Below are positions 346 to 53,334 of a stretch of 64,000 nt of DNA, one piece after another. Within the stretch, counting starts at the first letter, position 1. The number at the start of each line of letters is the position of its first letter. Origin of the DNA: Tridacna crocea (taxonomy: Eukaryota; Mollusca; Bivalvia; Cardiida; Cardiidae); NCBI GenBank assembly GCA_943736015.1, contig OX031071.1:12310119-12374118 (forward strand). Direction: 5' to 3'. The notes beneath the pieces were generated by a model that did not search any database, was not told the origin of the DNA, and worked only from the letters and a program-made list of their open reading frames with translations. Both the position numbers and the translations under genes were made by a program.

Positions 346-718
346 GACACTTGCATAGTTTCACTGACTACTGATATATGACCTAAGCAGTTAAAAGGGT
401 GTTAAACTCCAACATAAACACATCAGGTTGTAAAAACATATTGTTGCTAGACTTACCCCTGTACAAGCTTGGGCAATAATCCCGTAATATTCTCAGGCCT
501 TCAGGATCTGTCATCTTTGGGGCGTTTCTTGTTGTGGCATTGGCGGGACAATTCAATTTTCCCTTGTTCCATCCCGGACCACACTCTCCATACCAAATAC
601 ATTGGGGCTGAACTTGACCTGGATCTTCCAGAAAGCACTGAAAAAAAAAAAGGATAACTTACTATAAGCCAAGTTATACAGTCAGACATGTATTATCCCT
701 TTACAATACAATGAGGAG
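346..718. other. no gene recognised
   Basis: Includes GTGTTAAACTCCAACATAAAC, a SINE-tail-like phrase also at 61680. Two overlapping frames at 469-689 are not protein-like. Confidence 0.4.
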
Positions 719-17630: not shown

Positions 17631-17912
17631 AACACTGTCACACTGGAGAGACCTTACGAACTTGCTCCCGGGCAACGTTACTGTCCCTGTCAATTTTACG
17701 CACCTGTTCGAGTAAAAAACATGGCTGCGCCCATAAAATTACACATGGTAAGCACAAAAACATACTTCTATTACAACCAGATGAGTAGATGTGCAGTAGA
17801 CGGTTGGCGCACGGAATGTCTGGGATGTCATTGCATATTTATGTATAGTTCCTTTAGTGGTTTGTTATTTGTTAAAGACGTTTAATCCAACAAACTTCCG
17901 TCAGCGACTGCG
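17631..17912 (+). repeat. left arm of 280-bp inverted duplication
   Basis: Matches 21100-21388 in reverse complement: nearly identical over 17637-17765, then roughly 75-80% alike to the motif GACGTTTAATCCAACAAA. The arms lie 3.2 kb apart and flank the NPC1-like gene's 5' side. Confidence 0.85.
17721..17747 (+). other. duplicate of the 9-codon putative first exon
   Basis: Reads MAAPIKLHM then GTAAGC at 17748. About 80 bp upstream and the exon itself are nearly identical to the copy at 21.3 kb, while the sequence after the donor diverges more. The frame stays open through the donor to 17885, which is why it shows as a longer ORF. Confidence 0.3.
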
Positions 17913-18223
17913 ATTTCTGAATAATCAACACATGGGAGTCAGCAAAAAGCTTTTTTAAACATATACACACAATAATCTGAAGTTTGTGTTATGTCAGGTG
18001 AATCACATATGCTTTATTCACCACAGTTGAAAACAAAAACTATACGACATCCATTAAAGAGCACTTTTCTGTCAATTTTTGTTGGCAACGCTCCACGCTC
18101 CAGAACACAATAAAACGATCCAGTTCCTGTATTGAAAAAGAGAACGATATCATAATGTGATTGTGTCCTAATTTAATGATTGTTTTCCCTTTTTTCCCTT
18201 CTTTAATCAGTATGTTTAATTGT

Positions 18224-20099: not shown

Positions 20100-20111
20100 A
20101 GGTGGCTAACT

Positions 20112-20658: not shown

Positions 20659-21099
20659 TAAAATTGGGGATAGAAACAGAGAACCCGAGATCGCCTGAAT
20701 ACATGCCCAGTAACATTAAGCCTATTGATAGAAAAAAGAGTTCAACGTGTTTTAGAATTGTACTTCCATTCAAGTATTTATTTAACTACTTTACGACTGT
20801 GACTACGATAATTAATATAGAATCTTGACCAAAATAACAAAATTGTTCACTGTAACACAAACCTATACGCTTACCGTATTTTCAGCTCAGAAGCTGAATC
20901 GTTGTATTGAATTTAGGAGCATCTTACGTTGTAATGTAAAAATGGCAAAATATCCTTTAATAACTGCAACTTGATTTTTTATCAGTTTATAGCTCTGAGG
21001 ATAATCACTGTATTGGTCATCTGACACGACACACACTTCAGAATATCGACTATATATGTTTTACAAAGGTTTTTGGAGACTCCATGTAGTGTTTTTGCA
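20659..21099. other. no gene recognised
   Basis: AT-rich spacer before the inverted duplication upstream of the NPC1-like gene. Confidence 0.4.
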
Positions 21100-21388
21100 G
21101 AAATCGTAGTCGCCGACGAAACTTTGTTGGATTAAACGTCTTCAACAAACGATTAACCACCAAAAGAACTAAAGATTAACGTGCACTGACACCCCAGACA
21201 TTCCGTGCGACAACCTGCAACTGCATATCTATTCAATAACATGTTTAAAAAAATATGTTTTTGTGCTTACCTTGTGTAATTTTATGGGCGCAGCCATGTT
21301 TTTTACTCGAACAGGTGCGTAAAATTGACAGGGACAGTAACGTTGCCCGGGAGCAAGTTCGTAAGGTCTCTCCAGTGTGACTGTAGGG
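21100..21388 (-). repeat. right arm of 280-bp inverted duplication; upstream region of NPC1-like gene
   Basis: Ends about 100 bp before the NPC1-like start codon and so probably contains its promoter. It includes GTTGCCCGGGAGCAAG and CACTGGAGAGAC shared with 17.6 kb. No TATA box is evident. Confidence 0.8.
21271..21297 (-). other. possible divergent first coding exon (9 codons)
   Basis: On the minus strand an ATG at 21297 opens MAAPIKLHK, followed by a GTAAGC donor at 21270. The ATG is 189 bp from the NPC1-like ATG in head-to-head orientation. The same mini-exon occurs in the inverted copy at 17721-17747, where AAG is ATG. The next exon could not be located, so the gene is hypothetical. Confidence 0.35.
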
Positions 21389-21485
21389 AGAATTCATACG
21401 AAATATAGATTGACAGTTAAAGCATTTGGTGAAGAAGAAGAAGATTTTACATTTTATATTTACTGGTCTTTGGGAACTTCAGAAA

Positions 21486-21548
21486 ATGGTGAAAAGAACA
21501 GAACTGCTTGGCGATTTTGTGATGCTTTGCCTTATTTCGACGGGAGTT
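21486..21548 (+). CDS. NPC1-like: NPC1-like exon 1: signal peptide
   Basis: 21 codons starting at an ATG with A at -3 and G at +4. The peptide has a basic start (MVKRTE), a hydrophobic stretch LLGDFVMLCLI and a small-residue end STG, a typical signal peptide. Donor GTAAGT at 21549, phase 0. The open frame continues upstream to about 21426, but no ATG lies there. In human NPC1 the signal peptide is likewise on its own first exon. The link to exon 2 rests on matching phase and order, since 5 kb separate them. Confidence 0.75.
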
Positions 21549-24500
21549 GTAAGTCGTAAAACTTTTCATTTACATTGTATATGGGCTATGCCGTGTGAAA
21601 TAAGGGGGCTTAATGCAATGCAAAATGTATCAACCCAGGTCAGCCTACGCAGTCCGCGCAGGCTGACCTGGGTCGATACTTTTTCCTGTTGGCAAATTTT
21701 ATGCATGTTCGAGGGCAATGCTACCCCAGGATTTCGTGGGGTTTTAGACAAAATGGATTTTATGGTTCCATAATCATGCCGTGACTTGCTTGATATAATG
21801 CCATCACGCGTTGTCTGCGCATGTCATATTCTTCGAAGATTCTACCTGTCTTTTATGACGCATCACTGGCCCCGAAAGTGGGCAGACTATAATATTACGC
21901 TCTATAAAGTAGCGATGTAGAAAATAGCTTTTATCAATACGTTTGAGGAGAAATGAGACCTGCTTTAGCTCCGGATTTCTCTAAACTGCTGATCATAGCT
22001 GAGTGAATTGTACGAGGTAGCGTTTTATTGAGTAAACGTTTATTTTAGTTTGAAATTCAAAGTAACGCTTTTCGCGTAGGAAAGTGGTTCGGTTCTGTAT
22101 CCAGGATGCCCAAATTAGATAGATGAGTATTTATAGAATGCCATCTAGCGGGAGATAATGGAGTATTTATAGAATGCCATCTAGCGGGATATAATGGCCA
22201 TCACGGGGATGCAGTAAACCCCTATATGCCAGAGCACGACTGACACGTAATTGTAACCGTTTAAATGGTAACGTTATTAAATATTTCAATGAACTGAATC
22301 AAAGAATTCTTTTCAGTCCGAGATAGAAGACCTGTAACGCGGTAATTTCAATCCTCGTTTGCTACACTCCTGGTGTGTCTCAGATTGTACAGATCAACCT
22401 TGGACTTGACCATCTACGCAGTCTGATCTGAAATTGTCTGTATTCTGGTGAAGCTCCAGAAAGCTCATATATTATGTTACAGTGGGAACATCTTTGCGAG
22501 CCAAGGTTACGATCACTACGTGGATCTTACCTTGGCTGATCGAGCCCGATTTCGAGATTCCTGCAATGCGCCCTCTATTGGATGCTGGTTATTAAACCCC
22601 CCCCCTTTACATCATTTTTCTTAAAGCCAATGAAATATCGTTTTAGAAACCGTTTACGAAAACAATTATTCAACATGAAGCGATAAGCAGACATCCACGT
22701 GGATTTCCATGTTTACCTTGTCTTCGAAAGCTCTATTTTTATCAAAGATGAAATGCTACTAGCGATTTCATTCGTTGCAGTTAGAGCTGGCTGCATCCAA
22801 TGAAAAAGCGTATCGAGTGAATGTAAAAATCAAGCTCGATCCGTCAAGGGTAGAGACCCGTAGTGAATCGTACGTCAGCCTTGGCTTGCGAAGATGCTGT
22901 GGGAATAGCACAGAAGATTGATATGTTGCGGGGAAAAGTGTATTAGGCTGTAAGTGATGTTACAGTGGAAAGTAAGAAGGCTGTAAGTTATGTTAACCCT
23001 TTCCCAAATGACAAACTTTTGGACTAGGCCAAATTGAAAGCATTTGCAGACGACAATTCAACTCTTGCTGAAAAGATGATTTCTGTCTACAATAGGGTAG
23101 AAAACATTGTGGGAAAAGGAGAAAATGCTGGTTACCAGCATTTTCTCCTTTTCCCACAATGTTTTCAAAAGGCTACTTTTCCAGACCCGTAAAAACCAGG
23201 GATTGTTTGGGAAAGGGTTAAGGAGGACAGTACAAAAGACCAAAAGACATGGGCATAATATGTAACACTGTTAGCTATGTTACGGGGTATAGAGCAGAGG
23301 GCAGTTAGTTATGTTGCGAGGTATAGTGCAGAAGACTCTCAATTATTTTGCAGGGGAAATAGTATAGAAGGCTATAAGTTATGTTGCGGGGGATAGTACA
23401 GGAGGCTGTTAGTTATGTTGCGGGGGATAGTACAGAAGGCTGTTAGTTATGTTACGGGGGATAGTGCAGAAGGCTGTTAGTTATGTTGCGGAGGGGAGTA
23501 CAGAAGGCTGTTAATTATGTTGCGGTGGGAGGAATAGGACAGAAGACTTAGTTATGTTACGGGGGATAGTGCAGAAGGCTGTTAGTTATTTTGCGGGGGA
23601 TAGTATAGAAGGCTATAGAAGGTTATGTTGCGGGGGTTAGTACAGAAGGTTGTTAGTTATGTTGCGGAGAGGAGGACATAAGGCTGTGAGTTATGTTGCG
23701 GGGGAAAGTGCAAAAGGTTGTTACTTATTTTACGGGGGTAGTGCAGACGGCTGTTAGTTATGTTGCAGAGGGGAGTACAGAAGGCTGTTAGTTATGCTGC
23801 GGAGAATGGTACTGAAGGCTGTTAGTTAGGTGACAATACACGGTTGTCAGCGAAACTCGTCTCGCTCCGCCATACGCCAAACTGATCTTCCTCAAACAAA
23901 GGTCTATATAGTCAGCCTGAAATTATAAGGAGCACTTAAATGCAACAGCACAATCCCAATTCTTTAGATTTTATCAGTAAATCATGTTCAACTGGTGAAA
24001 TAGTGATATTAATGATCAATATAAGCAATTGGCATGATCGGAAAAAAAACTGAAAAAATATGCCATTTTAGCCTATATTCCAAAATTCACAAAATGCAAA
24101 CCCAGAAAGCTAGCCTGAAAATGCCAAGCTAAATTGAAACTTAAAACAACACATAATCTGGGGATAAAATCCAAAATAGCACCTTACCATGCCGATTTAA
24201 CGCAATCTTTCGTGCCCTGACCCTACCCTTGTTTTCGACGCTAAAAACAGCCGCTTGCTCCATGACCCCTCACTTTCGCATTTGGGGTCAAAACTATAGA
24301 ACAAAGAAGGAAAGATCATGACCCCCCCCATATCACATACAAACGAAATGCTTCTTTTCCTTAATCTAACACACTTTATGGGTGTAATAGCTACTCTTCT
24401 TATCAAAATTGCATTAAAAACCTATACTTTACCCACTTATTCCTAATTTTGACCCGGTCAAAACTGTTTACACGTGCCTTAAGTTGCGGGGGACAGTGTA

Positions 24501-27500
24501 GTAGACTGTTAGTTATGTCATGGGGATAGTACAGAAGTTTGTTAGTTATCTTACGGGGGATAGAGCAGAAGGTTGTTAGTTATGTTGCGGGGGATAGTGC
24601 AGAGGTCTGTGAGTTATGTTACGGATGATAGTTATGTTGCGGGGGATAGTACAGAAGACTATTAATTATGTTGCGGTGGACAGTACAGAAGGCTGTTAGT
24701 TTTGTTACCGGAGTAGTAAAGACGGCTGTTAGTTATTTCGAGGTGGGAAGTACGGAAGTCAGTGAGTTATGTTACGGGGGATAGTATTGAAGTCTGTTAG
24801 TTATGTTGCGGGGAAAAGTACAGAAGACTGTTAGTTATGTCGTGGAGGATGGTAAAGAAGGCTGTAAGGCTGCGGTGGACAGTACAGAATGCTGTTAGTT
24901 ATGTCGCGGGGGATAGTGCAGAAGGCTGTTAAGTTGCGGGTTATAGTACAGAAGGCTGTTAGTTGTGTTGCGGGGGAAAGTACAGAAGACTGTTAGTTAT
25001 GTTGTGGGGAATAATGCAAACGGCTGTTAGTTATGTTGCGGTGGAAAGTACAGAAGGCTGTTAGGTTGAGGGGGATATTGCAGACGGTTGTTAGTTATGC
25101 TGCGGTAGATAGTACAGAAGGCTGTTAATTATGTTGCGGTGGATAGTACAGAAGGCTGTTAGTTGTGTTGAGGGGGACAATACAGAAGACTGTTAGTTAT
25201 GTCGTGGGGAATAGTGCAGACGGCTGTTAGTTATGTTGCGGTAGATAGTACAGAAGGCTGTTAATTATGTTGCGGTGGATAGTACAGAAGGCTGTTAGTT
25301 GTGTTGCGGTGGACAGTACAGAAGACTGTAAGTAATGTCGTGGGGATAGTGCAAACGGCTGTTAGTTATGTCGTGGGAGATAGTGCAGACGACTGTTAGT
25401 TATGTTGCGGTAGATAGTACAGAAGACTGTTAATTATGTTACAGTGGATAGTATAGAAGGCTGTTAGTTGTGTTGCGGGGGACAGTACAGAAGACTGTTA
25501 GTTATGTCGTGGGGGATATTGCAGACAGCTGTTAGTTATGTTGTTGGGGAAAGTGCAGACGGCTGTTAGTTATATTGCGGTAGATAGTACAGAAGGCTGT
25601 TAGTTGTGTTGCGGGGGACAGTACAGAAGACTGTTTATTATATATGTCGTGGGGGATAATGCAGACGGCTGTTTGTTATGTTGTGGTGGATAGTTTAGAA
25701 GGCTGTTAGTAATGTCATGGGGGATAGTGCAGACGGCTGTTAGTTAGGTTGCGGTGGATAGTACAGAAGGCTGTCAGTTAGGTTGCGGGGGATAGTGCGG
25801 AAGTCTGTTAGTTGTGTCGCGGTAGGTAGTACGGAAGTTCGTGAGTTATGTTACGGGGGATAGTACGGAAGTCTGTTAGTTATGTTGCGGCAGATAGTAC
25901 AGAAGACCTTTAGTTATGTCGTGAGGGATAGTGCAGACGGCTGTAAGTTAGGTTGCGGGGGATAGTGCAGAAGTCTTAGTTATGTCCCGGTGAGTAGTGC
26001 GGAAGGCTGCTAGGTTGAGGGGGATAGTGAAGACAGCTGTTAGTTATATTGCACTGGATAGTACAGAAGGCTGTAAGTTATACTGTGGGGAATAGTGCAG
26101 TCGGCTGTTAGAAATATTGCGGTGGATAGTACAGAAGGCCGTTAGTTATGTCGTTGGGGATAGTGCAGACGGCTGTTAGGTTGCGGTGGATAGTACAAAA
26201 GGCTGTTAGTTAGGTTGCCGGGAATAGCGCAGAAGGCTGTTGGTTATGTCTTGGGTGATACTATAGAAGTCTGTTAGTTATGTCTTTGGTGATAGTATAG
26301 AGGGCTGTTAGTTATGTTGCGGGGGATAGTACAGAAGGTTGTTATTTATGTTGCAAGGGATAGTACAGAAGACTGTTATTTATGTTCAGGGGGACATTGC
26401 AGAGATCTTTGACGACCCTGAGGTAGAACCCCTTTGAAAACATTGTGGGAAAAGGAGAAATGCTGTTTTCTAACCTCCCAAAATCAAATTTCGATTTTTC
26501 AGTCACATTTATTTTGTCGTCTGCAAATGCTTTCAGTTTGGACCAGTCTATATATTTATCGTTTGATAAGGAATTAAGGGCTATACACTCAATTGACAAT
26601 TTACATTTCAGGGTTTTCTGCTGGATGAAGATAAATGTATATGGTATGGACGGTGTGGTAACGGATGGAACAGGGGAAGGTTAAACTGTCCCGCGGACCC
26701 AACCACATCAAGGGCCCCGCTGCTTACGGACCCCGAGGGTTTGAGGATTGTAAGGGACTACTGTCCGAGCCTCTATAAAGGTTGGTGGCTATTATAAAGG
26801 GGAATAACTCCATTTCGTTGAATATCTTGGCCTCTGCACACAAAACATGAGTTAATATATTCGACAATGCTGTGGTAATCCGAAAATAATACACTTTGAA
26901 TTACGAAGAAATGAAACTCTTTCTTTTTTCCCTTTGAGATTAATGGGTTTAATAGCTACGATTTAACTCATTACCAAACGACAATATTTTAGGCTTGTCC
27001 AAATCGAAAGCATTTGCAGACAACAAAATAAAAGTGAATGAAAATTAAAGATTTGTTCTTTGAGGAGTAGAAAACATTGTGGGAAAAGGAGAAAATGCTG
27101 GTTACCAGCATTTTCTCCTTTTTCCACAATGTTTTCTTAAGGCTTCTTTCTCATGGCCGTCAAAAGGAGGGATTGAGTGTTAATGGGTTAAGAAGCCAAA
27201 AGTACAAATCCACTTGTTGTGATGCCACACATACTTCTTGCAGCGTAGATAAGCTGAAGGACCTCTCGGTAAAATTTCTCAAATTTCTCAGCTGTATTAC
27301 TCTAAGTGATATACAAAATATAACGAGCGACATGTATATTGCTGCGGCCAGTACACCTACCAAGCTTTCTTGAAGTTCTTTTCACCAGTGCTCTGCCCAA
27401 TATTCTTCCCAACCTACTGACCAATTCCTCGTAAAAATCAAAGTCTGTTTTATATAGATCGTGCAGTGAGAAATGTTCCCGTAAACTGGTCTTTACAAGT

Positions 27501-30500
27501 GCATGAAAATCTTTCTGGACATAAATTGACAAAATTGTCACGGATCTGTCTTAATTTGTTCAGGAAATCAGGGACAGTTTGCCCTATTTCACATGTATAA
27601 ATCTACGAAAAAACATGTTTTCTGCTTTTTGACAAAGCTCAAAATTAGTGTACGCAAAGCCGGAATTCGAACTCAAAACCCTTTGATTTCAAAATCTAGA
27701 ATCTGGCTTGTCATTTGAATTTATAGATATCTATTCTATAAATCATTCACGTCGCTCGTGTAGAGGCTTTACCTTTTTCATATTATACATACATGTGCAT
27801 AATACATATCTTTGCCGGAAGTAGACCGCCTTACCATTCTTAAAGGCGTAACACTCCGCTTACAAAAAAATAAGACTAGTCAAAATTTCCTATCGAAATT
27901 GTTCCAAGTACATTTCCGTTCCTTAAATGTTTGTAAATCCATTTTGTGATGTGGTTAATCAATTCCGTTGGTAATTTTCACTGATAATTCGATACACGTG
28001 ACTGCCTGTACATGACACTTCACAATGGAAACTTCTTTATATAGACAAGGGTAGATGTCGGCTGAGATATGATCAGTGCTTAAAACATGCGAAAAAGTGA
28101 TAGGTGTAATGAGAACAAAGATAAAGATTTTCAGGATTTGAAAACAAGAAATAAAGGAATATTATATTTCATGTGTCTATTTTTTAGGAATGTTATGGGT
28201 AAAGAGATATCGTAATTTAAGCTAATTGGGGGAATTATTTCCCCGTCACAGTCAATATTTTCCTCCTGCCGAAAATCTGGAACTACCTTTTTTGAAAATA
28301 TCGGTTATCCGGTTAATTGACTTGAGATCACTAGTTTTAAAAGTGGCATTCGTTGACAAAATAATCAGAGGAAATATAATATATAATTCATTTCATCAGC
28401 TTGTGGTTAATATGGGGAAATATTTGCCGAAAAAGGGAAAGGTCCGCGAAAATAAGTGAGAACAAAGATAAAGATTTTTAGGATTTGAAAACAAGAAATA
28501 AAGGAATATTATATTTCATGTGTCTATTTTTTAGGAATGTTATGGGTAAAGAGATATCGTAATTTAAGCTAATTGGGGGAATTATTTCCCCGTCACAGTC
28601 AATATTTTCCTCCTGCCGAAAATCTGGAACTACCTTTTTTGAAAATATCGGTTATCCGGTTAATTGACTTGAGATCACTAGTTTTAAAAGTGGCATTCGT
28701 TGACAAAATAATCAGAGGAAATATAATATATAATTCATTTCATCAGCTTGTGGTTAATATGGGGAAATATTTGCCGAAAAAGGGAAAGGTCCGCGAAAAT
28801 AAGTGAGAACAAAGATAAAGATTTTTAGGATTTGAAAACAAGAAATAAAGGAATATTATATTTCATGTGTCTATTTTTTAGGAATGTTATGGGTAAAGAG
28901 ATATCGTAATTTAAGCTAATTGGGGGAATTATTTCCCCGTCACAGTCAATATTTTCCTCCTGCCGAAAATCTGGAACTACCTTTTTTGAAAATATCGGTT
29001 ATCCGGTTAATTGACTTGAGATCACTAGTTTTAAAAGTGGCATTCGTTGACAAAATAATCAGAGGAAATATAATATATAATTCATTTCATCAGCTTGTGG
29101 TTAATATGGGGAAATATTTGCCGAAAAAGGGAAAGGTCCGCGAAAATAAGTCGTGCCTTACGGCACTCGTTATTTTCGCATACCTTTCCCTTTTTCGTCA
29201 AATATTTTCCAATATTAACCACAAGCTGATGTAATAAACTCTTTTTATATCCACAGGTGACACGGCAACACGGACTTGCTGCAGTGTAGATCAGCTGAGG
29301 GACATCAGAAGGAGCATGTCCTTGCCCAAAACGTTCCTTGGCCACTGCCCAGCCTGCTTCCACAATTTTGCAAACCTATTCTGTCAGATGACTTGCTCTC
29401 CGCTGCAAAGTCGATTCCTGATGGCTAACAACACAGCACCGAAACCCGTCTCCTACACTACTGGTATACCTAGAGTCACCTACGTTGTAAGTACTGACTT
29501 TGCCAACGGCTTGTTGGATTCGTGCGTTGAAGTACAGACATTTTTCGCAGCAAAGGCTATTGGTTTTCTCTGTGGGAGACCGGCGTCACAGTGTACACCC
29601 CAAAGCTGGTTATCGTACTTAGGTGATGTTAATGTGGGTCAAGCACCGTTTCCGATTGACTTCGTGATTACAGATAGCCAGACCTGGACGGCTCCGGATG
29701 GTTTCAAACTCGAGCCTCTGGGCAACATGAACGCCCGATGTAACAAAGAGCTACCTACACAAAGTACAGTGATAGGTATGTATATATGAATATGCACAGC
29801 TTTGAGGATTATTTTGGCTTGTCTTACGAACGAAGTCCGTAACAGACACAAATGCAGAAGTAGAGGGACCGGGTAGGATTGGAACCTAAAGCGCCCGGAC
29901 GAAGGCCAACACCATAACCACTGAGCGTACGAGAATTCTCCCTAAAAACACATTTGTCAGGTATTGTATTTAAACCGGGATGAAGCCGTGCAAGAAGGAG
30001 TGGTGTCCCGTAATGCATCCCATCTTAAAGTCATCATTTATTGATGACTCAAAGCCTTATTAGACAGAAAGTCCGTTTTTGGACAAAAAAAAAATAGGAT
30101 TAGCAACAAATGGCGAAATGGACAATCTCGGAGAATTGACAAATGAGCTAAAGAGAATTCTCCCTAACGCAGTTGTTAAGTATTATATTAAAATGGGATG
30201 AAGCCATGCATGAAGAATGGGTATCCCGTAACACATCCCATCTTAAAGTCATCATTTATTGATGACTCGAAGCCTTATTAGACAGAAAGTCCGTTTTTGG
30301 AAAAAAAATAGGATTAGCAACAAATGGCTCAATGGCCAATCTCGGAGAATTAACAAATGAGCTTAAGAGAGTTCTTCCTAATGCAGTTGTTAGGTATTAT
30401 ATTTAAATCGGGATGAAGCCATGCGCGATGGAGTTGTCTCCCGTAACACTTGCAACACGGAAAAATGTACATTCGGGCATTTGCAAAAAGTGTCGTTCGG

Positions 30501-31191
30501 ATCAGCCTGCACAGTCCGTGCAGGCTAATCCGAAACAACACTTTCCATTTTTATGCAATTTTCTTTCCTGTGCAAGTGTAATGTAGTCTAAAATTTTGTC
30601 CTTTGGTAAAAAAAGTTAATAATTTCACTGGTATAGTTTATAGTTTATGCTACCCGATAATATGAACTTGTCCCTCACAATCCTGAGTTTCAACGAATCC
30701 CGAGAAGCTGTTTAAAAGCATTATGGGAGAAAGAGACAGTGATGGTAACCAGCATTTTCTCCTTTCCCACAATATTTTCCACCGTTTTAGACACAAATTC
30801 CATCATCGAAACCGCATATAATGGGTCGTCTGCCAATGTTTTCGAGCTGGACCAGTTCAAAGTTTTTAACTTGGCAAAGAGTTTAACGGTTTAGTTAAAA
30901 AAAAACTTCGTAACTAAAACTTGTTTCAAGCTGTAGTTGCGAGGTTTTTGAAGTAAACCGATGTTAAATCCTTTTTCAGGAAAATCCAAATGTGCTTGCA
31001 AGGAATGCAGAGCGTCACAACCGTGTATTGCTGATCCACGACCTACAAGTGACACACGGAAAAAATATTTTGACAAGGTGTTTGGGTACGTGTTCCCTAT
31101 TTACGTAACAAAGAATTTATAATACATTCTTTTCAGGTTTAAGACTTCCTTCCTGAGAACAGAAAATATATTTATGTGATTTTCTTTTGTG

Positions 31192-31225
<34 letters not shown>

Positions 31226-34200
31226 ATAATAATAATAATAATAATAATTCAGTGATATTATTATCATTATTATTATTGCTTACTATGTCACTTGATTTGT
31301 GAAGCTTTATTATTGAAAAAAAAAAACAACTAGGATCATGCTTTTGATAAAAGAATGTCTTTTAGTTGTAGTAAATAGGGAATAGTAGCTATTTACCATA
31401 TTTCAAATGCTATAAGGAAAGATACGTCAGAGTATTTCAGCATGTAAATCACTTGTTTACAGTATATAAGCCCGAAAATGTATACTAGGACGAAAGAGAA
31501 ACGCAGGGTAACCTTTCAAGGCAATTTAGAGGTTAACTTGATTAAGAATTCTAAATTATGATTTCATGTTTACCACTGATCAGTTTTTAATATTTTGACG
31601 AAATTTCATTTCAGTGTGGCCAAAATACAATAAAAGTAGTAACTGACTGCATATGGAGACTCAAAGCTTATTCAGTATCTCGTATGGTACCCTGCGTTTC
31701 TTTTTCCTCCTAGTATAAATGAAAAAAAATATATTAACATCAATTTCTTCTTTGTTTTTAGAGCCGGAAAGTATGAGACAGTTGAAATTATTGTACAGCG
31801 CGCGGATAACCACACAAGGATTGAACATGCGCTACCACCGCCATCTGTAGCTAAAGTTGACTTCACTTCCATTTACGATAAACAGTTTCTTTATCAGGTC
31901 TGTATACAAATGTATACCAATTTCTCTAACGAATGAGAACAAAATAAAAATGCATGGAGACCTTACAAATTATAATCATAAACCAAATTACATTTATCGC
32001 AACATCCCAAGAGGACTCAATGATGAAAGAAGAAGAATGCAAATGAAAGAATGTGTTATTTGGTTACCCTTAGTCTTTATCTTGCAAGGGAGATAAATTG
32101 ACCTACAGGAATGCCTCCTTTCCCCATTACTGGACAATATTTGTTACACAGGCTGGTCGAACTTTTCATCATCGATAATTTTTTGGGTCGATCTTTTTTT
32201 GAAAATGCATTAATGTCCCTTTTCACAGAGAATGGCTTATGTGTCTTTGTCACGTGCTCGGCCGTTTTGACCGATCGGCGGCTGAGCCTTGTAAGTCAGT
32301 TATAAACATATGTACAATGCTTGAAACTAAAGGAGTCTTGGGGACTAATTCCCAGAGAAGCCAATATCTTTCCGAGTATTGATGATAATCATTATATACC
32401 CCCCCCCACAACGAAGTGGAGAGGGTGTACTGGTATCGCCATGTGGCTAACTGTCCGTCCGGCTGTCTGTCCGTCCGACTGCCCGTAGACGCAAATTTGT
32501 CCGGATTAATACTCACGCACTGAACTCAAATTTACACACAGGCTTCCTATATATAAAAGTTGTGCATCTGCAAATTATCATGACCCTGCTGCGATTTGTT
32601 GCAGAATTATCTCCCCTTGAACTTTTTTCAACTCTTACTTTTGTACTAACCATTCTGCATCCTGTGACAAAGACCTGTTTTTGTGACAATGAGCTAGTGG
32701 GGGATATAATCATGTTTAGTGATAGCTTTTGTTTCAGCTAGATTCATTCCTCTTTCACCGCTAATTATTATCTCATTTATTGTTATGTGAGAAACCAGCC
32801 CGAGGCTCAGGAAGAATATAGTGCGAAGAACTTGCAAAAGAAAGCTCAGGAGAGAGTCGATAAGTGAAGAACAAATCTGAAATGATAAAAAGCATTTTAA
32901 TGAGGCAACAAGCTCCTAGATGTCCAATACATGTACTCGTCAGTAAATCATGTTCGATTGTGAAATAGTAAAATTGCTGACTTTTTTTTCAGATTTGTGG
33001 TTTGGTAAAAAATAAACACACACAAATTGTATATTGATATTCTTCAGTTATTTATCTTGATTCCTCTTCGGTACTACATTGTCCTAATAAGGGGATTACT
33101 TGGGTTTTATCCTTGATTTTCTTGCACTGAACAAAGAAATTCTTGAGATAATGTCTCAACTTTATCTGGTTAAACAAGTCAATGTATACAAATTTCTCTA
33201 ACGAATGAGAACAAAATTTGCTTTAAAAAATGCATGGAGACCTTACACATAATAATCATAAACCAAATTACATTTATCGCAACGTCTCAAGAGGACTTTT
33301 AAAATGATAAAAACAGAGGAATGCAAATGAAAGAATGCGTTATTTGGTTAACCTTAGTCTTTATCTTGCAAGGGAGATAAATTGACCTACAGGAATGCCT
33401 CCTTCCCCCATTATTGGATTATATTTGTTATACACGTATTCCAAAATTTAATGATGCAAAACCATGGACTAAATTTCGAAATCACTTGGCTAAATTGACT
33501 TAATATGTCCATACAGTCTGTGGATGTAATATAAGAATACTGGTAATCATTACCCCACCCTAAATTCAGGTCAGCCTGACTCAAGTCACCAACCATTCTT
33601 AAGAACGTCCTCTGTCTTGTTCTTCGGGATTTTCTGACTGTGAAAGTAACAGTTCTTCTGATTGGCTAAACCAAATGGTTTAGCCAATCAGAAGTTCTGT
33701 TACTTTCACATTGACAAAATTCTGGAGAATAAGACTAAGGATGTTCTTAAGAATGGTCGGTGAATATACGAACCCAGGCTGAGCGCACTGCATAGGCTGA
33801 TTTGAATGGCTACTTTTTAGAAATGCATTAAGTCCCCTTTTCACAGGGCACGGTTTGGGTTTTTTTAGGTTTTGGATCTACAGACGGCTATATCACAAAT
33901 AACAACAAACGCTAATGGTGTGACAATATCATTGGACGATGTTTGTTTGAAATTGGCCAATCATCAGGAATGTGTCATAGAGAGTGTCTTACAGTATTAT
34001 CAAAACAACGGAAGTAAAATAGACGCCATTGTTTATGATGAATTTGGTATATTCGTACTGGCCAGCTATCTCGACCATTTCATTCAGTGTGCTGGGTAAG
34101 TATGTGAATCATTCCTCCCATTTATCTTTCATCTAACCGAATATACGTGCACATGAAAGAATACCTTTGCGATATTTTTGATATACCACGGATATTTAAT

Positions 34201-37200
34201 GAACTTCATCGCTCTTCACAATCCGGCCGTGTTTGTAAATACATCTAACCTTCGTATGAAGGAAATTTCCATTCTGGATTGCCAATGACATGATCGTAAA
34301 CATGGCGGCGTTCGTGAAAGTTAAATAGAAACGACAAAAACAACCGGTAGAATTGATAAACCACGGTAAAAATGTCATGTGCAAACTGCCTGTCAATGTT
34401 TAATGTATTTAGGCATATTTCGACAGAAAATTATGACTGTTGTTTTCTTTTATAAGAGGAGCCTTAAAAATTTAAGAGCGGTTAAATGGCGAATTTCCGC
34501 CAAAGAAATATACCGCGTAGATACATATCAAGCTACATGATACTTGATCAACTGGGAGCACCCGAGATTTCCGAATGATAACAGCACGTGGAGCCGGAAC
34601 ATCTATTACTTAATTATGTACTGCTTAACTGTTTTGTTTTTGTTAAAAATAATAAACACCAACAAGTTAAACATTTAAAGATAAATATATAGAGGATATT
34701 TGTTTTTTTCGGTGAAAGATCTAAATTTATTTCATCGAGTGGACACCATCGGTAATATTTTCACGAGTGGCGCAGCCACGAGTGAAAATATTACCGATGG
34801 TGTTCATGAGATGAAATAAATTTCGATCTTTCACCGAAAAAAACAAATATTCTATTTATTTTATGCTTTTAACTCTTTCTGGGAGAGCTTTATCAAAATT
34901 CAGTACAGTTCTTTTCCTTTATTCCCCGTGGCGTACCCCTCCCGCATAGCAACGTTATGTCAAGCGCGAGAAATTTAAGGTATATGACGTCATATTTCCC
35001 ATCTGGTTGTTAGGCAAGCGCAATTTACCTAGGCATCAAGAACGTGAAAATCGGTATTTTCACTGGTGGTACCAGTGTAAGATCGAAAAATATTTTCACT
35101 GCTATTTCTCGATATCCTACCGGAAAGCATGAAATAAAGTATTATCGTATATCAAAAGTATTGTATAAGATACAACAACAACAACATGCCTACTTTCGGC
35201 AGTGAACGACAATTTTATCAACTCCATCAGATATCTTTGATATAAGACAGGTAGGTCTATGTATGTATAACATGTATATAAACAGCCCTTCACCATACGA
35301 TGTGCACAGGCACAGCTGTCCTCAAACCACGAAGAACATAGCTATTTCTTATTCTATTCTACAGGGACCCGACTGTTGCACGAGACTCGTTAAGCTATCA
35401 TATGACATGTGGTGCCGAATTTGGCGGAGTGACACAACCCTACACAGTGCTTGAAGGATATCACGGTTAGTGTTAAATAAGCCACGCATGTGAAAAGGGA
35501 GATTGGTGCAGTCCGCGCAGGCTGGCCAGAATCATTACTTTTTTCTTTTTAGTTAATTTTCTGCTTGTCAAAGCGCCAACCTGTCTCAGGATTCAGACAC
35601 AGTGGATTGATGGATCCCAAGTTATGTTCTGTTAAAAAAAATACGTCAAGCGCGAGAAATATGAGATAAATTACTTCATATTTCCACCTTGTTGAGAGTC
35701 ACGCCCATTTTAAATAGCTAGGTAATTTGAATATAAAAATCGGTATTTTTACTGGTCATAACCATGAAATATCGTATAATATTTCAGCGATATTTCTCGA
35801 TAACCCAACGGGAAGCATGAAATAATTCTTGTTTATCACATTACCAGGAGAAGCTGATTATCCAAACGCTACGGCCTTCGTCATCACGTTTCTCTTGAAA
35901 ACAGGCGGGTCTTATACACAGAGCCAAGCATGGACAAAAGCCTTCACTGCATTTATGAGTTCGTACAGCAACCCTAACATGACGATAACATACAATCCAA
36001 GGCCACAGGTATGAAACTACACAGTTATATATTCTTTGTATGCTGATATCATTATGGTAAGTTGGGATCTGTACTCACCACAATGAACATTCCGAGTCTT
36101 ATTCTCAGATTTTTTTCTAAATTTAAATGTAACACAACTTCTTATTGGCTAAATCAAATGGGTTAGCCAATCAGAAGCTGTGTTGCTTTCTAAATCTATT
36201 ATTAGACTTTGAATGAAATTCAGAACGGCTCGCCGATACGCACCCTGGTCTTGAAAACGATATTAGGCCTACTCCCTCTGTGTTTCATAATTTCAGCCTG
36301 TCTTTCCTTTTCTTACAATATTTTCTGTCGTTTCATAAACAATTCCCGTCTACTGAGAATTATCTGATTTATTGTCTGTAAGCAAACTCGCAATTTGGAC
36401 AAATCTAGACTTTTGCCATGCGATTACTGCAAGATTTGTTCCAGCAGAAAATCTTTATCACTTGAGTCGTGCTCTATGATAAGGGTGCTTAATGCATCTG
36501 CGAAAAGTATCGATCCAGGTCAGCCTGCGCAATCCGCACAGGCTGACCTGAACCGAAACTTTTCGCTATTGGTCAATGTTTTGTATGCCGAAGGACCAGT
36601 CTACCTCATGACTATCATGGATCCCAAATTATGCGATGCCTTAACCCTTTACTCCATAGATACTCATTTCTACGCACTGCTTGTAGGAGCCTTTGGAAAA
36701 CATTGTGGCAAAAGGTGAAATTGCTCGTGATGAACAATTTCACCTTTTGCCACAATGTTCTCTATGCTATCAAAAGGTGTCATATACACATAAGAAACAG
36801 CTTCATCCTTGCTGTTATCTAGGTTCATTTAGAGATACCATAGAAATGCCTAATGGGGTAAAGGGTTAATCGGTATAATGCATCACGGACATGCGTTAAG
36901 CCCCCTTTTGCCAGAGCAGGGTTCGTTTGTTTTTGGACTGAGCTCTGTTACGTTCGGTTCTAACGCTTATTATAGGTCATGTAAACTTGGTGGTTAGAGT
37001 TCGAACTTTGGCTGGGTTCAAAGTCTTTCCGGGGATCTTATTATAGATTACAAACTTCGATGATGTCAAACTTGTGTGATGCCGATTTTGGCAACGACAA
37101 CTTGATTTGGCTCCCATGACAAAAATTGTCTTCCAGAGCGTAGAAAACATCTTTAGAAATGGAGTAAATGCTTGTAACCAGCATTTTCTCCTTTTCCCAC

Positions 37201-37469
37201 AATGATTTCTACCCTACTGGAAACAAATTTGAATTTTTGAGTTACTTTGTTTTTTTGCTGTCTGCAAATGCTTTCAATTTAGACTAAGTCTAAAATGTTG
37301 TTTGCTATAGAGTTAATAAATCTAATAATTACATTTCATTTTTCTTTTATCACTGGTAATATTGAATTCTTCCATTATTTTACAGACTGTATTTCGGACT
37401 GTCAACTTGGATGACAAGGAAGCAGAAGAAGATACCGTTACAGTTGACAAAAACGTTCTTGTTAATTAA
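21486..37469 (+). CDS. NPC1-like: NPC1-family gene encoding a soluble NTD-MLD protein (9 exons, 521 aa)
   Basis: Seen: nine exons (21486-21548, 26612-26780, 29257-29775, 30980-31085, 31762-31897, 33869-34095, 35365-35465, 35848-36008, 37386-37469), all with GT-AG borders, total 1566 nt, phases 0,1,1,2,0,2,1,0, no internal stop. Residues 1-21 are a signal peptide. Residues 22-266 match the NPC1 N-terminal sterol-binding domain, with 18 cysteines (30,36,47,72,85,86,108,111,120,124,167,183,190,239,255,257,260,266) in the family order. Residues about 270-505 match the middle luminal domain, with cysteines 357,366,405,422. N-glycosylation sequons lie at 135, 302, 378, 447 and 484. Known: human NPC1 has 1278 residues and 13 TM helices, takes sterol from NPC2 and exports it from lysosomes; Asn41 and Gln79 contact the sterol hydroxyl. 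These correspond to N46 and Q90 here. Odd: no TM helix after the signal peptide; the segment carrying TM1/TM2 and everything after the MLD is missing. Inference: a secreted or endolysosomal-lumen sterol carrier. A recent decaying partial duplicate is less likely, given the intact frame, splice sites and cysteines. Confidence 0.9.
21598..21775 (+). mobile_element. family E fragment at the start of intron 1
   Basis: ATAAGGGGGCTTAATGC then a perfect palindrome around AGGTCAGCCTACGCAG (21640-21672). Begins 50 bp after the exon 1 donor. Confidence 0.75.
21875..22127 (-). mobile_element. related 350-bp element, one end degraded
   Basis: Has TATAATATTACGCTCTATAA and right end CCAGGATGCCCAAATTAGAT. 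In intron 1. Confidence 0.75.
22127..22197 (+). repeat. two tandem 36-bp units
   Basis: GAGTATTTATAGAATGCCAT with CTAGCGGGA(G/T)ATAATG occurs twice in a row at the end of the 21.9-kb repeat. Confidence 0.85.
22489..22898 (+). mobile_element. 410-bp inverted-end repeat, copy 1
   Basis: Ends CATCTTTGCGAGCCAAGG and CCTTGGCTTGCGAAGATG are inverted repeats. In NPC1-like intron 1. Non-autonomous, no ORF of note. Confidence 0.75.
22915..22992 (+). repeat. 34-bp minisatellite, first segment
   Basis: Start of the intron-1 array, about two degraded units (GGCTGTAAGTTATGTT), cut by the family A element at 22993. Confidence 0.7.
22993..23221 (+). mobile_element. family A element in the minisatellite
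   Basis: TTAACCCTTTCCCAAATGAC to TTTGGGAAAGGGTTAA, exactly 229 bp, perfect hairpin 23099-23167. The array continues on both sides. Confidence 0.97.
23222..23832 (+). repeat. 34-bp minisatellite, second segment
   Basis: About 17 units of consensus GGCTGTTAGTTATGTTGCGG plus GGGATAGTACAGAA. Clean 34-bp spacing, for example 23404 and 23438. Confidence 0.95.
23833..24477. other. 645-bp non-repeat stretch interrupting the minisatellite
   Basis: Runs from GTGACAATACACGG to GTGCCTT with minisatellite on both sides. Probably an inserted element, but neither inverted ends nor a target duplication could be shown. A 69-codon minus frame (24197-24406) is unremarkable. Confidence 0.5.
24478..26395 (+). 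repeat. 34-bp minisatellite, third and longest segment
   Basis: About 55 units, more varied than the earlier segment: GTCGTGGGG and GTTGCGGTGG variants and AGTGCAGACGG / AGTACAGAAGG alternate, giving higher-order blocks (for example around 25050-25330). Ends about 215 bp before exon 2. Confidence 0.95.
26400..26580 (-). mobile_element. family A element, hairpin collapsed
   Basis: TTTGACGACCCTGAGG to ATCGTTTGATAAGGAATTAA. The hairpin right arm is lost (GGAGAAATGCTGTTTTC). Ends 32 bp before exon 2. Confidence 0.8.
26612..26780 (+). CDS. NPC1-like: NPC1-like exon 2: start of sterol-binding NTD
   Basis: Acceptor ACATTTCAG just before 26612, donor GTTGGT at 26781, phase 0 in and 1 out. Encodes residues 22-78, including CIWYGRCG (human CVWYGECG), LNC with the sterol-contact Asn (N46) and YCPSLYKG (human LCPGFFFG). 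It carries cysteines 30, 36, 47 and 72. Confidence 0.93.
26963..27191 (+). mobile_element. family A element in intron 2
   Basis: TTAACTCATTACCAAACGAC to GTTAATGGGTTAA, 229 bp, near-perfect hairpin. Confidence 0.95.
27212..27300 (+). pseudogene. decayed copy of the start of NPC1-like exon 3
   Basis: A 33-nt stretch starting ACTTCTTGCAGCGTAGAT aligns without gaps to exon 3 (27 of 33 identical), and the frame gives CSVDKLKDL against CSVDQLRDI. Similarity starts before the exon, around the acceptor, and fades after about 50 nt; a stop follows in frame at 27372. It looks like a relic of a local exon duplication in intron 2, 2 kb upstream of the working exon. Confidence 0.55.
28111..29151 (+). repeat. 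three tandem 347-bp repeats
   Basis: Copies at 28111-28457, 28458-28804 and 28805-29151 appear identical except one base early in copy 1 (TTTTCAGG for TTTTTAGG). Each contains the same 77-codon frame, which is a repeat shadow. It ends 105 bp before exon 3. Confidence 0.98.
29168..29231 (-). repeat. inverted partial copy of the 347-bp repeat
   Basis: CGTTATTTTCGCATACCTTT onward is the reverse complement of the last about 65 bp of the 347-bp unit. With the unit end it forms a hairpin around GTGCCTTACGGCAC at 29152-29168. Confidence 0.85.
29257..29775 (+). CDS. NPC1-like: NPC1-like exon 3: body of NTD
   Basis: Acceptor ATCCACAG, donor GTATGT at 29776, phase 1 to 1, 519 nt. Encodes residues 78-251. 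Landmarks: TCCSVDQL (human SLCCDVRQL, giving Q90 for human Gln79), HCPACFHNFANLFCQMTCSP (human [20 protein letters not shown]), GFLCGRPASQC and VGQAPFPI. This is the longest exon and gives the clearest family match. Confidence 0.97.
29927..30450 (+). repeat. about 220-bp tandem repeat, 2.4 copies
   Basis: AATTCTCCCTAA, GGGATGAAGCC and CATTTATTGATGACTC recur at about 225 and 213 bp spacing. The first copy is preceded by a tRNA-like stretch (29870-29930). In intron 3. A related fragment is at 39070-39165. Confidence 0.85.
30470..30565 (+). mobile_element. family E fragment in intron 3
   Basis: CATTTGCAAAAAGTGTCG and the CAGCCTGCACAGTCCGTGCA palindrome only. Confidence 0.65.
30665..30890 (-). 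mobile_element. degraded family A element in intron 3
   Basis: CTCACAATCCTGAGTTTCAACG to GGCAAAGAGTTTAA; hairpin partly lost. Lies about 90 bp before exon 4. Confidence 0.75.
30980..31085 (+). CDS. NPC1-like: NPC1-like exon 4: NTD end fused directly to MLD start
   Basis: Acceptor CCTTTTTCAG, donor GTACGT at 31086, phase 1 to 2. It encodes KCACKECRASQPC, matching the four-cysteine end of the NTD (human PCSCQDCSIVC), and four residues later PTSDTRKKYFDKVFG, matching the opening of the middle luminal domain (human SSQARLEKEYFDQHFG). In human NPC1 about 120 residues with TM1, a cytosolic loop and TM2 lie between these motifs. Here they are absent within a single exon, so no skipped exon can restore them at this join. 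Confidence 0.92.
31194..31275 (+). repeat. (GA)n-(AAT)n microsatellites
   Basis: GA repeats (31195-31221) then AAT repeats (31223-31248) and an ATTATT echo to 31275. In intron 4. Confidence 0.9.
31762..31897 (+). CDS. NPC1-like: NPC1-like exon 5: MLD
   Basis: Acceptor TTGTTTTTAG, donor GTCTGT at 31898, phase 2 to 0. Encodes residues 286-331, including GKYETVEIIVQRA (human FFRTEQLIIRAP), a proline-rich loop ALPPPSV where human NPC1 has its first NPC2-contact loop, and the helix start KQFLYQ. Sequon N302-H-T. Confidence 0.88.
31903..32155 (+). repeat. intron-5 dispersed duplicate, copy 1
   Basis: From CAATTTCTCTAACGAATGAG to CATTACTGGACAATATTTGTT; matches 33183-33430 with few changes. Starts just after exon 5. 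Confidence 0.9.
33183..33430 (+). repeat. intron-5 dispersed duplicate, copy 2
   Basis: Same orientation as copy 1, 1.28 kb downstream. Between them lies a (C)n run and GTCCGTCCGGCTGTCTGTCC-type sequence common in repeats. Confidence 0.9.
33587..33764. mobile_element. family D palindromic element
   Basis: CACCAACCATTCTTAAG to CTTAAGAATGGTCGGTG; mirror centre ACCAAATGGT. In intron 5, inside what looks like a family E remnant (AGGTCAGCCTGAC before it, GCTGATTTGAA after). Confidence 0.95.
33869..34095 (+). CDS. NPC1-like: NPC1-like exon 6: MLD
   Basis: Acceptor GGTTTTTTTAG, donor GTAAGT at 34096, phase 0 to 2. Encodes residues 332-407, starting VLDLQTAI (human VLDLQIAI). LDDVCLKLANHQECVIESVL aligns with the human disulfide loop C468-C479, and FGIFVLASYLDHFIQC aligns with DDFFVYADYHTHFLYC. 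Confidence 0.95.
34700..34865. repeat. large palindrome
   Basis: GAAAATATTACCGATGGTGT and its mirror flank GAGTGGCGCAGCCACGAGTG. The arms extend outward through GAAATAAATTT and GATCTTTCACCG. In intron 6. Confidence 0.9.
34962..35135 (+). repeat. intron-6 repeat related to intron 7
   Basis: GTCAAGCGCGAGAAAT to GGAAAGCATGAAATAAA; matches 35645-35825. The pair brackets exon 7. Confidence 0.8.
35365..35465 (+). CDS. NPC1-like: NPC1-like exon 7: MLD
   Basis: Acceptor TATTCTACAG, donor GTTAGT at 35466, phase 2 to 1. Encodes residues 407-441. TCGAEFGGVTQPYTVLEGY aligns with human CLGTFGGPVFPWLVLGGY and supplies the cysteine partner (C422) of C405. Confidence 0.85.
35645..35825 (+). repeat. intron-7 copy of the intron-6 repeat
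   Basis: GTCAAGCGCGAGAAAT to GGGAAGCATGAAATAA, including AAAATCGGTATTTTTACTGG, ending about 20 bp before exon 8. Confidence 0.8.
35848..36008 (+). CDS. NPC1-like: NPC1-like exon 8: end of MLD
   Basis: Acceptor ATTACCAG, donor GTATGA at 36009, phase 1 to 0. Encodes residues 441-494. YPNATAFVITFLLK aligns with human NNATALVITFPVN, QAWTKAFTAFM with QAWEKEFINFV, and SNPNMTITY with KNPNLTISF. This strand is the last part of the MLD before TM3 in the human protein. Confidence 0.95.
36073..36240. mobile_element. family D palindromic element, degraded
   Basis: TGTAACACAACTTCTTATTG and GCCAATCAGAAGCTGTGTTG arms; outer ends worn. In intron 8, just after exon 8. Confidence 0.8.
36465..36930 (+). mobile_element. 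family E element carrying a family B insertion
   Basis: Left end GTGCTTAATGCATCTGCG at 36486, right end GCCCCCTTTTGCCAGAGCAG at 36900. The family B element interrupts it in the segment before the right end. Confidence 0.85.
36641..36869 (+). mobile_element. family B element inside family E
   Basis: TTAACCCTTTACTCCATAGA to GGGTAAAGGGTTAA, 229 bp. Hairpin centre GCTCGTGATGAAC has two mismatches. Confidence 0.95.
37130..37315 (-). mobile_element. family A right-half fragment in intron 8
   Basis: GTAACCAGCATTTTCTCC through TCTGCAAATGCTTTCAATTT to ATAGAGTTAA. Confidence 0.75.
37386..37469 (+). CDS. NPC1-like: NPC1-like exon 9: acidic tail and stop codon
   Basis: Acceptor TTATTTTACAG, phase 0, 27 codons and TAA. 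The tail VNLDDKEAEEDTVTVDK is acidic and hydrophilic where human NPC1 has an acidic stretch and then TM3. No hydrophobic run follows and no donor is needed: the frame closes at 37467-37469 inside a TTAA that borders a family A element. Exon identity rests on phase, a good acceptor and position; the sequence itself has only compositional similarity to NPC1. Confidence 0.72.
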   Translation, partial: TVFRTVNLDDKEAEEDTVTVDKNVLVN

Positions 37470-37745
37470 CCCATTAGCAAACGACAAAATTTCGAACTGG
37501 TCCAAATTGAAAGTATTTGCAGACGACGAAATAAAAGTGACTGAAAATTTGGAATTTGTTTTGTGAAGGGTAGAAAACCTCGTGGGAAAAGGAGAAAATG
37601 CTGGCTACCAGCATTGTCTCCCTTTCCCGCAATTTCTCTACCCTATTAAAGAATAATTGCACAATCTGAACAACATGAAATTGTCGTCTGCGTATGCTTT
37701 GAGTTTGGCTAAAATTATGTTGTCTGGTCACAGGTAATGGGTTAA
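37466..37745 (+). mobile_element. family A foldback variant overlapping the NPC1-like stop codon
   Basis: TTAACCCATTAGCAAACGAC to GGTAATGGGTTAA, 280 bp. Unlike other copies, both halves are of the GCATTTGCAGACGAC type, so it is a near-complete inverted repeat. The left TTAA includes the NPC1-like TAA; the left half holds the AATAAA. Confidence 0.92.
37530..37535 (+). promoter_or_regulatory. candidate polyadenylation signal AATAAA
   Basis: First AATAAA after the stop codon, 61 nt downstream, with a GT-rich stretch (TTTGTTTTGTG) about 20 nt further on. It lies inside the family A element at 37466-37745, so the 3' end of the transcript would be transposon-derived. Confidence 0.45.
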
Positions 37746-37917
37746 AAGTCTCTTTTCTGCAACATAATATGGATTTTTTTCCACATTTTTACTTTTTCAC
37801 CAGATTATTTTTCTCGAGCTACATGCATCTTTTTTTTTGCGTGTAGTTCTTATGATGTAAGAACTGACCGTGCACAGGCACTGATTGGTTCGAATAAAAA
37901 AGTCTTGTAAATCCAAG

Positions 37918-38045
37918 AAAATGTGACCCGTCACGCAAAAAGGGACCTCCTGGGAACTGCGAAAAGTGTCAACCCTGGTCAGACTGCGCGAATTTCGCAG
38001 GCTGACCAGGGTGGACACTTTTCGCTTTTATGACATTTTCTGCGT
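37918..38045 (+). mobile_element. GTGACCCGTCACGC repeat, left part
   Basis: GTGACCCGTCACGCAAAAAG then palindrome TGTCAACCCTGGTCAGACTG mirrored by GCTGACCAGGGTGGACACT. Second copy of the 15.4-kb repeat. Confidence 0.85.
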
Positions 38046-38329
38046 GAAAAGTGATCATATTACTTTGTTATACAATCATTATTACCTTATTTGTGTATAT
38101 GTACGTAATACTGCAACAAACTCTGTTGGTAAATCAAAACACGGAAAATGGAGCTTAAGATTTTATTGATTGTTTGATCTTTCACGTCGTTTTCAACATT
38201 ATTTCAGTTAGATCTATGTACATCGCGACGACGAGTGCAGCTATCCATTCTTACGAACATGAAAGTTCGCTACAATGGCACTGCTGAGGGATTCGAACCC
38301 ATACGCACAAATCGATCTATCCCATTATT

Positions 38330-52955: not shown

Positions 52956-53334
52956 AGACCATGAGCATGACAACGTGTGGACAGACACATTGCAGTTTGA
53001 TGATTCATCAACCCTTTGGCGAAAAATCTTGCGTTATAACAATTATTGCCTTCTCCAGTTAGAGCAGTCAGTATTGTACAGAATATCAGACGTGGTGGTC
53101 ACTGGTTCAAACACCTTTCCTTTGTGAATTTCGTTCCCAGGATTGATTATAATAATTGCAACAAGATTCACTTCGTCTCTGCTGATCATTGTCTTGACAG
53201 TGGGTATGTGGGAAAGCAGCCAATGGTTTAGGAAGAGTATATTGTGTGAAGAACTCGAACAGATATATTCCAGAAAAGCATAGATAGGTCAACAGGCAGC
53301 AGCAATATATCTGAAATACTATTGAAAATGTCAT

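Follow-up and report, generated by a model that had tools for sequence, protein, structure and literature searches.

Does a gene of the NPC1 family in Tridacna crocea encode a soluble protein built from the two lumenal domains, and could such a protein handle sterol? The gene in question, gene A, lies at 21486-37469 on the + strand of the window, the 64,000-nucleotide stretch of contig OX031071.1 that was analysed. The initial annotation had read it as a nine-exon, in-phase gene of 521 codons ending in a stop, and this structure was borne out: nine exons join in phase to give 521 codons followed by TAA at 37467-37469, and all eight introns are GT-AG. When all sites within 21000-38500 were ranked by a weight matrix, the eight donors scored among the best 0.5-4% of the 1100 GT, and the eight acceptors among the best 0.1-7.3% of the 1075 AG. 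Across the 1566 bp of the nine exons the frame is free of stops and frameshifts, and every splice site is intact; the exons are as follows.

Exon 1, 21486..21548, + strand: signal-peptide-like start MVKRTELLGDFVMLCLISTGV, with a hydrophobic core (KD19 2.08); donor GTAAGT from 21549
Exon 2, 26612..26780, + strand: beginning of the NPC1 N-terminal domain (NTD); carries N46 (human N41) and W32 (W27)
Exon 3, 29257..29775, + strand: bulk of the NTD; Q90 (Q79), F119 (F108), P208/F209 (P202/F203)
Exon 4, 30980..31085, + strand: final NTD cysteines joined straight to the start of the middle lumenal domain (MLD); human 254-384 absent
Exon 5, 31762..31897, + strand: MLD; the docking loop 1 counterpart falls here
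Exon 6, 33869..34095, + strand: 227 bp, MLD, with F390 and F393 in the counterpart of docking loop 2
Exon 7, 35365..35465, + strand: 101 bp, MLD
Exon 8, 35848..36008, + strand: end of the MLD; reading through past the donor gives valine (GTA), then a stop (TGA)
Exon 9, 37386..37469, + strand: acidic tail TVFRTVNLDDKEAEEDTVTVDKNVLVN and stop

Two Pfam domains were identified in the product, both well above cut-off: NPC1_N (E 9.6e-51; residues 28-274, profile positions 2-231 of 244) and NPC1_MLD (E 3.2e-45; residues 278-490, profile positions 1-213 of 216). They were the only matches in a Pfam scan to E 0.001, and no NPC2-type (ML) domain was present. Identity to human NPC1 is 36% (89/250) and 40% (98/248) in the two domains, counted over aligned columns with the signal and tail included. 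As the initial annotation stated, alignment to the human protein confirmed that all 22 cysteines of the NTD and MLD (18 + 4) are kept as cysteine and that N41 and Q79 are retained as N46 and Q90. W27, F108, P202 and F203 are identical too, so that the six residues which we take to be the sterol-site core are conserved 6/6. In the human NTD, the P202A/F203A substitution abolishes cholesterol binding, according to PMC6062155. Judged by these kept contacts, the gene A product is likely to bind sterol.

The wider surroundings of the sterol site are less well conserved. Of 27 author-listed human NTD positions, 14 are identical and 13 changed, the changes including E30 to R, K38 to G, N86 to S, D180 to P and E191 to S. 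When the limits of the NPC2-docking loops in the MLD are taken from PMC9903137, loop 1 keeps four of nine residues (P422, P424, S425 and A427) and loop 2 four of six (D501, F503, F504 and V505), each with two residues inserted; NPC2 docking by the gene A MLD is putative, as both loops are only partly kept. These changes, which affect 13 of the 27 NTD positions and over half of docking loop 1, would fit a working soluble protein that is not a carrier but a decoy or regulator binding NPC2 or another partner via the MLD, or a Juno-like receptor. Juno itself offers a precedent among the folate receptors, a paper on it referring in the title to divergent evolution in vitamin B9 binding (PMC4751342). 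Against such a role stands the identity of the whole presumed core and of 14 of the 27 listed positions, and we regard it as rather unlikely.

No membrane part of NPC1 was found in gene A. Human residues 254-384, comprising TM1, the loop and TM2, are without counterpart, and the MLD opening (372-384) is among the residues lost. As the NTD end and the MLD start lie within one exon, exon 4, the join is a genomic fusion, and exon skipping was rejected as the cause of the absence of TM1-TM2. From residue 23 onward the highest 19-residue hydropathy is 1.17, and therefore no TM segment follows the signal region. A tblastn search with human NPC1, which is not fully sensitive (exons 4 and 5 were found at E >5 only, and exons 1 and 9 were missed), gave no match below E 5 to TM3, the sterol-sensing domain (SSD) or the C-terminal lumenal domain (CTD) up to 64000. 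The CTD with its NTD-binding loop is likewise absent from the 521 codons. Introns 3-4 and the 28 kb downstream yielded neither a TM exon nor any other piece of NPC1; the + strand search for missed TM exons of 60-400 bp returned no candidate in intron 3 and none in intron 4. One downstream phase-open candidate exon bearing a TM segment (53141-53203) was discarded, having no likeness to human NPC1. The score against the full-length family TIGR00917 is 236.5 bits, below the cut-off of 1016.5.

It is highly improbable that gene A is a full-length NPC1 with TM exons that the assembly has dropped or that fall outside the window. Downstream of the stop the window extends for 26.5 kb, so that more exons could in principle follow after its end, and the limited sensitivity of tblastn also leaves room for this; however, TM1-TM2 are not skippable exons, no TM3, SSD or CTD match was obtained at the threshold used, the sole TM-exon candidate does not resemble human NPC1, and exon 8 stops at once when read past its donor. 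The architecture first proposed, signal peptide, NTD, MLD and stop without a TM segment, is upheld by the Pfam matches, the hydropathy and the lack of a TM exon match in the window.

The acidic tail of exon 9 found no family match, and its derivation from the human pre-TM3 segment was not supported, with 627 of 5000 shuffles reaching the observed score. The stop of gene A falls within a TTAA at one border of a repeat (37466-37745). TTAA also occurs at the far end of that repeat and therefore reads as a target site; a stop codon made by a transposon is unlikely. Repeats adjoin exon 9, and a remnant of exon 3 lies in intron 2; the repeats are reminiscent of those of bivalve molluscs. Scanning the window for Rfam families and tRNAs gave no matches.

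A second NPC1-like gene, gene B, lies head-to-head with gene A, and the two share a 5′ block in inverted orientation. The features concerned are the following.

Gene B exon 2, 457..637, - strand: second NPC1-like gene, head-to-head paralogue, with later exons beyond the window
Gene A 5′ region, 21017..21384, + strand: inverted match to 17634-18001, 85%, with an identical 109 bp run at 21273-21381
Inverted counterpart of this block, gene B side, 17634..18001, - strand: identical run at 17637-17745

Exon 1 of gene B was searched for and not found, and the shared 5′ block contains a 37-residue antisense frame with no Pfam or PDB match up to E 1. Comparison of exon 2 of the two genes over 48 codons revealed constraint, with 11 differences at first, 8 at second and 26 at third codon positions. 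By LWL85, dN is 0.19-0.20 and dS 1.48 (the NG86 dS being undefined), an estimate that covers exon 2 alone and both copies jointly, with silent sites saturated. The location of most differences at third positions argues, if crudely, against long pseudogene decay.

These data bear on whether gene A is a disused truncated duplicate, a pseudogene still unbroken. Truncated duplicates are common, and the locus is restless, as the exon 3 relic and the repeats beside exon 9 attest. Against this reading, the frame and splice sites are intact over all nine exons, every one of the 22 cysteines is kept, and the third-position bias, crude as it is, leaves scant room for a long neutral period. We consider a pseudogene improbable.

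The best explanation, which we put at about an even chance, is that gene A is a functional copy of NPC1 pared down to a soluble sterol acceptor or carrier, either lumenal or secreted. An NPC1 gene would have been duplicated head-to-head, and the gene A copy would have lost TM1, the loop and TM2 via fusion inside one exon. Everything from TM3 on would also have been lost, before or after the duplication, gene B running out of the window. We infer expression, secretion, sterol binding and hand-over: the product would be a soluble, glycosylated, disulfide-rich protein entering the secretory path, and most likely would hold one sterol in the N-terminal pocket, N46 and Q90 contacting the sterol hydroxyl as their equivalents do in NPC1. 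It may receive sterol from NPC2 or from micelles and then either hand it over in trans to NPC1 in the membrane or retain it. In favour of this explanation are the intact frame and splice sites, the nearly full-length domains, the kept cysteines and core contacts, the constraint on exon 2, the intron positions in common with human NPC1 and the lack of a TM or SSD exon match downstream. Weighing against it are the 13 changed NTD positions, the altered docking loops, the lost MLD opening, an acidic tail for which no counterpart is known, and the anchoring and lysosomal targeting of the published NTD fragment.

For such a role as a free sterol shuttle or scavenger, suggested at the outset, the kept contacts and the trans action of an anchored NTD fragment would speak in favour, while the partly kept docking loops and the arginine in place of E30 may count against it. 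More tentatively, and as a prediction from sequence that we hold at well under even confidence, an animal lineage may have made an NPC1 duplicate into a secreted one-chain NTD-MLD carrier, combining the NPC2 docking domain with the sterol cup and carrying sterol in trans between donors, in the lumen or outside the cell, and NPC2 or membrane NPC1.

How sterol travels from NPC2 to the membrane by way of the NPC1 MLD and NTD is a matter of continuing debate, including whether the NTD has to move or is able to act in trans. If the proposed carrier is real, it would be a naturally soluble counterpart of what is known as a membrane transporter and a ready test object for sterol hand-off, and the NPC1 family would make carriers besides transporters. 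Were it widespread in a lineage dependent on sterol from the diet, its presence would suggest a hitherto unknown route for sterol.

That no natural soluble NTD-MLD member has been described, as the initial annotation held, agrees with the open-licence PMC papers among the matches listed, though unnamed database entries may exist. Pattern searches gave 13 matches in viral contigs and 31 in bacterial and archaeal genomes, none of them a relative; an animal relative is not expected in either. Gene A resembles human NPC1 in having both lumenal domains nearly full length, with all cysteines and the core sterol contacts, and in four intron positions and phases. The 3′ border and phase of exon 6 correspond to human c.1553/1554, and exon 7 and human exon c.1554-1654 are both 101 bp. 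These common intron positions indicate descent from an intron-bearing NPC1 gene. Unlike in the 13-TM NPC1, no TM1-TM13, SSD or CTD was found for gene A. NPC1L1 has the same two domains (PDB matches 6v3f and 7dfz) but matches more weakly than NPC1 (171.5 versus 250.4 bits) and, like NPC1, is a membrane protein.

The folate receptor, Juno and the HHIP N-terminal domain are related in fold to the NPC1 NTD and occur outside any transporter; unlike the gene A product, they have no MLD. NPC2 has a fold unrelated to the NPC1 domains and consists of one small domain. It is a soluble sterol binder and a working analogue only, as are the atypical cnidarian NPC2s of sterol-needing hosts; PMC6548501 reports NPC2 variants recruited to new functions in animals acquiring sterol from elsewhere. 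The MLD folds alone as a recombinant module (PMC9903137), and NPC1L1 and NPC1 fragments purified as a lone NTD or MLD are soluble single domains; these are laboratory products, unlike the predicted natural two-domain chain of gene A (PMC7228765 and PMC9903137). A further parallel may be drawn with the engineered NTD-TM1 fragment of human NPC1, in which the NTD is likewise apart from the transport body and acts in trans. According to PMC6062155, this fragment, separate from the rest but TM1-anchored, restores export in human cells, and cholesterol moves from one NPC1 to another; the working form was membrane-anchored and lysosome-targeted, and an ER-mislocalised version failed. Unlike gene A, it is man-made, anchored by TM1, targeted to lysosomes and without the MLD.

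The nine-exon NPC1-like gene (gene A) is located at 21486-37469 on the forward strand. The initial annotation had proposed nine in-phase exons and 521 codons, which were borne out, with all eight introns bounded by GT-AG and a TAA stop codon at 37467-37469. Exon 1 encodes a signal-peptide-like start and exon 9 contributes 27 residues before the stop. Pfam matched two domains in the product: NPC1_N, the N-terminal sterol-binding domain (NTD), at residues 28-274 (E 9.6e-51, profile positions 2-231 of 244), and NPC1_MLD, the middle lumenal domain (MLD), at residues 278-490 (E 3.2e-45, profile positions 1-213 of 216). No further domain was found up to E 0.001. The closest solved structure was human NPC1 (3jd8, E 3.9e-73), which aligned in two stretches, residues 27-272 with human 22-253 and residues 271-495 with human 385-608; in this alignment human residues 254-384 (TM1, loop, TM2 and the MLD opening) have no counterpart. 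The product, about 55 kDa without glycans and carrying five N-glycosylation motifs, is predicted from its sequence to be soluble, because the maximum 19-residue hydropathy from residue 23 on is only 1.17; the earlier claim that no TM segment follows the signal peptide thus held.

The missing TM parts are no annotation slip. Exon 4 (106 bp) encodes both the last cysteines of the NTD (C-x-C-x2-C-x5-C) and the first residues of the MLD (KKYFDKVFG), so alternative splicing between the exons cannot place TM1-TM2 between the two domains. Reading through the exon 8 donor gives a valine and then a stop codon (GTA TGA). When the whole window was searched by tblastn with human NPC1, the query agreeing with the 3jd8 sequence, exons 2, 3, 6 and 8 reached E 3.4e-4 or better and exon 7 reached E 0.28. 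Matches to exons 4 and 5 all had E values greater than 5, and exons 1 and 9 were not recovered; TM1-TM2 and the post-MLD parts gave no match below E 5. The forward strand was also scanned for potential exons of 60-400 bp that have an open phase and encode a hydrophobic segment, using splice thresholds as lax as the gene's own sites; introns 3 and 4 gave no candidate, and the single one beyond 36008 does not resemble human NPC1. To judge by the weak scores of exons 4 and 5, these searches of the window are not perfectly sensitive.

Nine human NPC1 exon borders fall within the aligned domains (c.57, 180, 287, 463, 631, 1326, 1553, 1654 and 1757); four are common to gene A and five are absent. 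Two of the shared borders match the human exon ends c.57 and c.1326. The exon 6/7 border corresponds to c.1553/1554 at the same residue and in the same phase (2), and the exon 7/8 border has the same phase (1) as c.1654/1655, its position being shifted by one residue next to an alignment gap. Both genes have a 101-bp exon 7. The human borders c.1553/1554 and c.1654/1655 were inferred from variant names in PMC7141276. Introns 1, 5, 6 and 7 are thus in human places, and introns 2, 3, 4 and 8 are not. With introns in NPC1 places, gene A looks like a shortened copy of an NPC1 gene that had introns, rather than a retrocopy.

A second NPC1-like gene (gene B), a paralogue of gene A, leaves the window at its left end, and all of it beyond exon 2 lies past that end:

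637-457, reverse strand: gene B exon 2, 67% identical to gene A over 55 residues, head-to-head with gene A

This exon was matched by human NPC1 at E 1.7e-6 and by Pfam NPC1_N at E 9.2e-6, yet 1.1 bits below the cut-off; exon 1 of gene B was looked for in the window and not found. Over 48 aligned codons of exon 2, genes A and B differ at 11 first, 8 second and 26 third positions, and LWL85 gave dN 0.19-0.20 and dS 1.48 (NG86 dS undefined), an estimate from one exon with saturated silent sites. This bias and the dN/dS would allow only a short neutral period, at most, for either copy. The 1566 bp of gene A coding sequence are free of stops and frameshifts, every splice signal is intact, and all 22 family cysteines of the NTD and MLD are present, as had been claimed.

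The 5′ regions of the two genes have a common inverted stretch (21017-21384 versus 18001-17634), 85% alike over 371 columns. Inside it is an identical 109-bp run, 21273-21381 on the forward and 17637-17745 on the reverse strand, which may be a shared promoter, 5′ UTR or antisense exon; an open frame in this region, VTLERPYELAPGQRYCPCQFYAPVRVKNMAAPIKLHK, had no match in Pfam or PDB. A palindrome of about 1.1 kb (19549-20658, 86.5% self-complementary) lies between the two 5′ regions.

Several repeats and relics were also found at the locus. Intron 1 holds a diverged minisatellite with strong GC skew (23268-26394; 34-bp unit in arrays of about 16, 5 and 52 copies), and intron 2 a same-strand decayed copy of the exon 3 start (27208-27265, 58 bp, 71%) that has lost its acceptor AG. 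Just upstream of exon 3, a 347-bp unit occurs three times in tandem with 99% matches (28110-29151). Starting exactly at the gene A stop codon is a repeat flanked by TTAA (37466-37745), which is present in many copies across the window; an AATAAA inside it at 37530 could act as a poly(A) signal.

Alignment to human NPC1 found N41, Q79, W27, F108, P202 and F203 all kept, including the N41 and Q79 equivalents named in the initial annotation; the first four line the sterol pocket of the human NTD. A change at P202/F203 abolishes cholesterol binding of human NPC1, according to PMC6062155. Of 27 human NTD positions compared, 14 are identical and 13 changed, among them E30 to R, K38 to G, N86 to S, D180 to P and E191 to S. 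The NPC2-engaging MLD loops, given as human 420-428 and 501-506 in PMC9903137, are partly kept, with 4/9 (P422, P424, S425, A427) and 4/6 (D501, F503, F504, V505) residues respectively and two extra residues in each. Sterol binding is likely, and with its loops only partly kept the product may or may not dock NPC2; the free sterol shuttle or scavenging carrier proposed earlier would be a putative role.

As to function, we infer that the product would be unable to export sterol alone, because it has no membrane part; it could hold sterol, or pass it to membrane NPC1. In PMC6062155, a separate TM1-anchored NTD together with NPC1 lacking its NTD restored export, i.e. acted in trans, and an ER-mislocalised version failed to do so. 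This is a precedent for action in trans, with the difference that the fragment was anchored by TM1.

No natural soluble NPC1 was found among the matches listed in the open-licence PMC literature, in agreement with the earlier statement that a soluble NTD-MLD member is undescribed; the architecture is unusual and, among those matches, undescribed. By domain content, gene A falls into the NPC1_N and NPC1_MLD families. Its product is not an NPC1 transporter, because its score with the full-length model TIGR00917, 236.5 bits, falls short of the cut-off (1016.5) and because it lacks the membrane part and the C-terminal lumenal domain.
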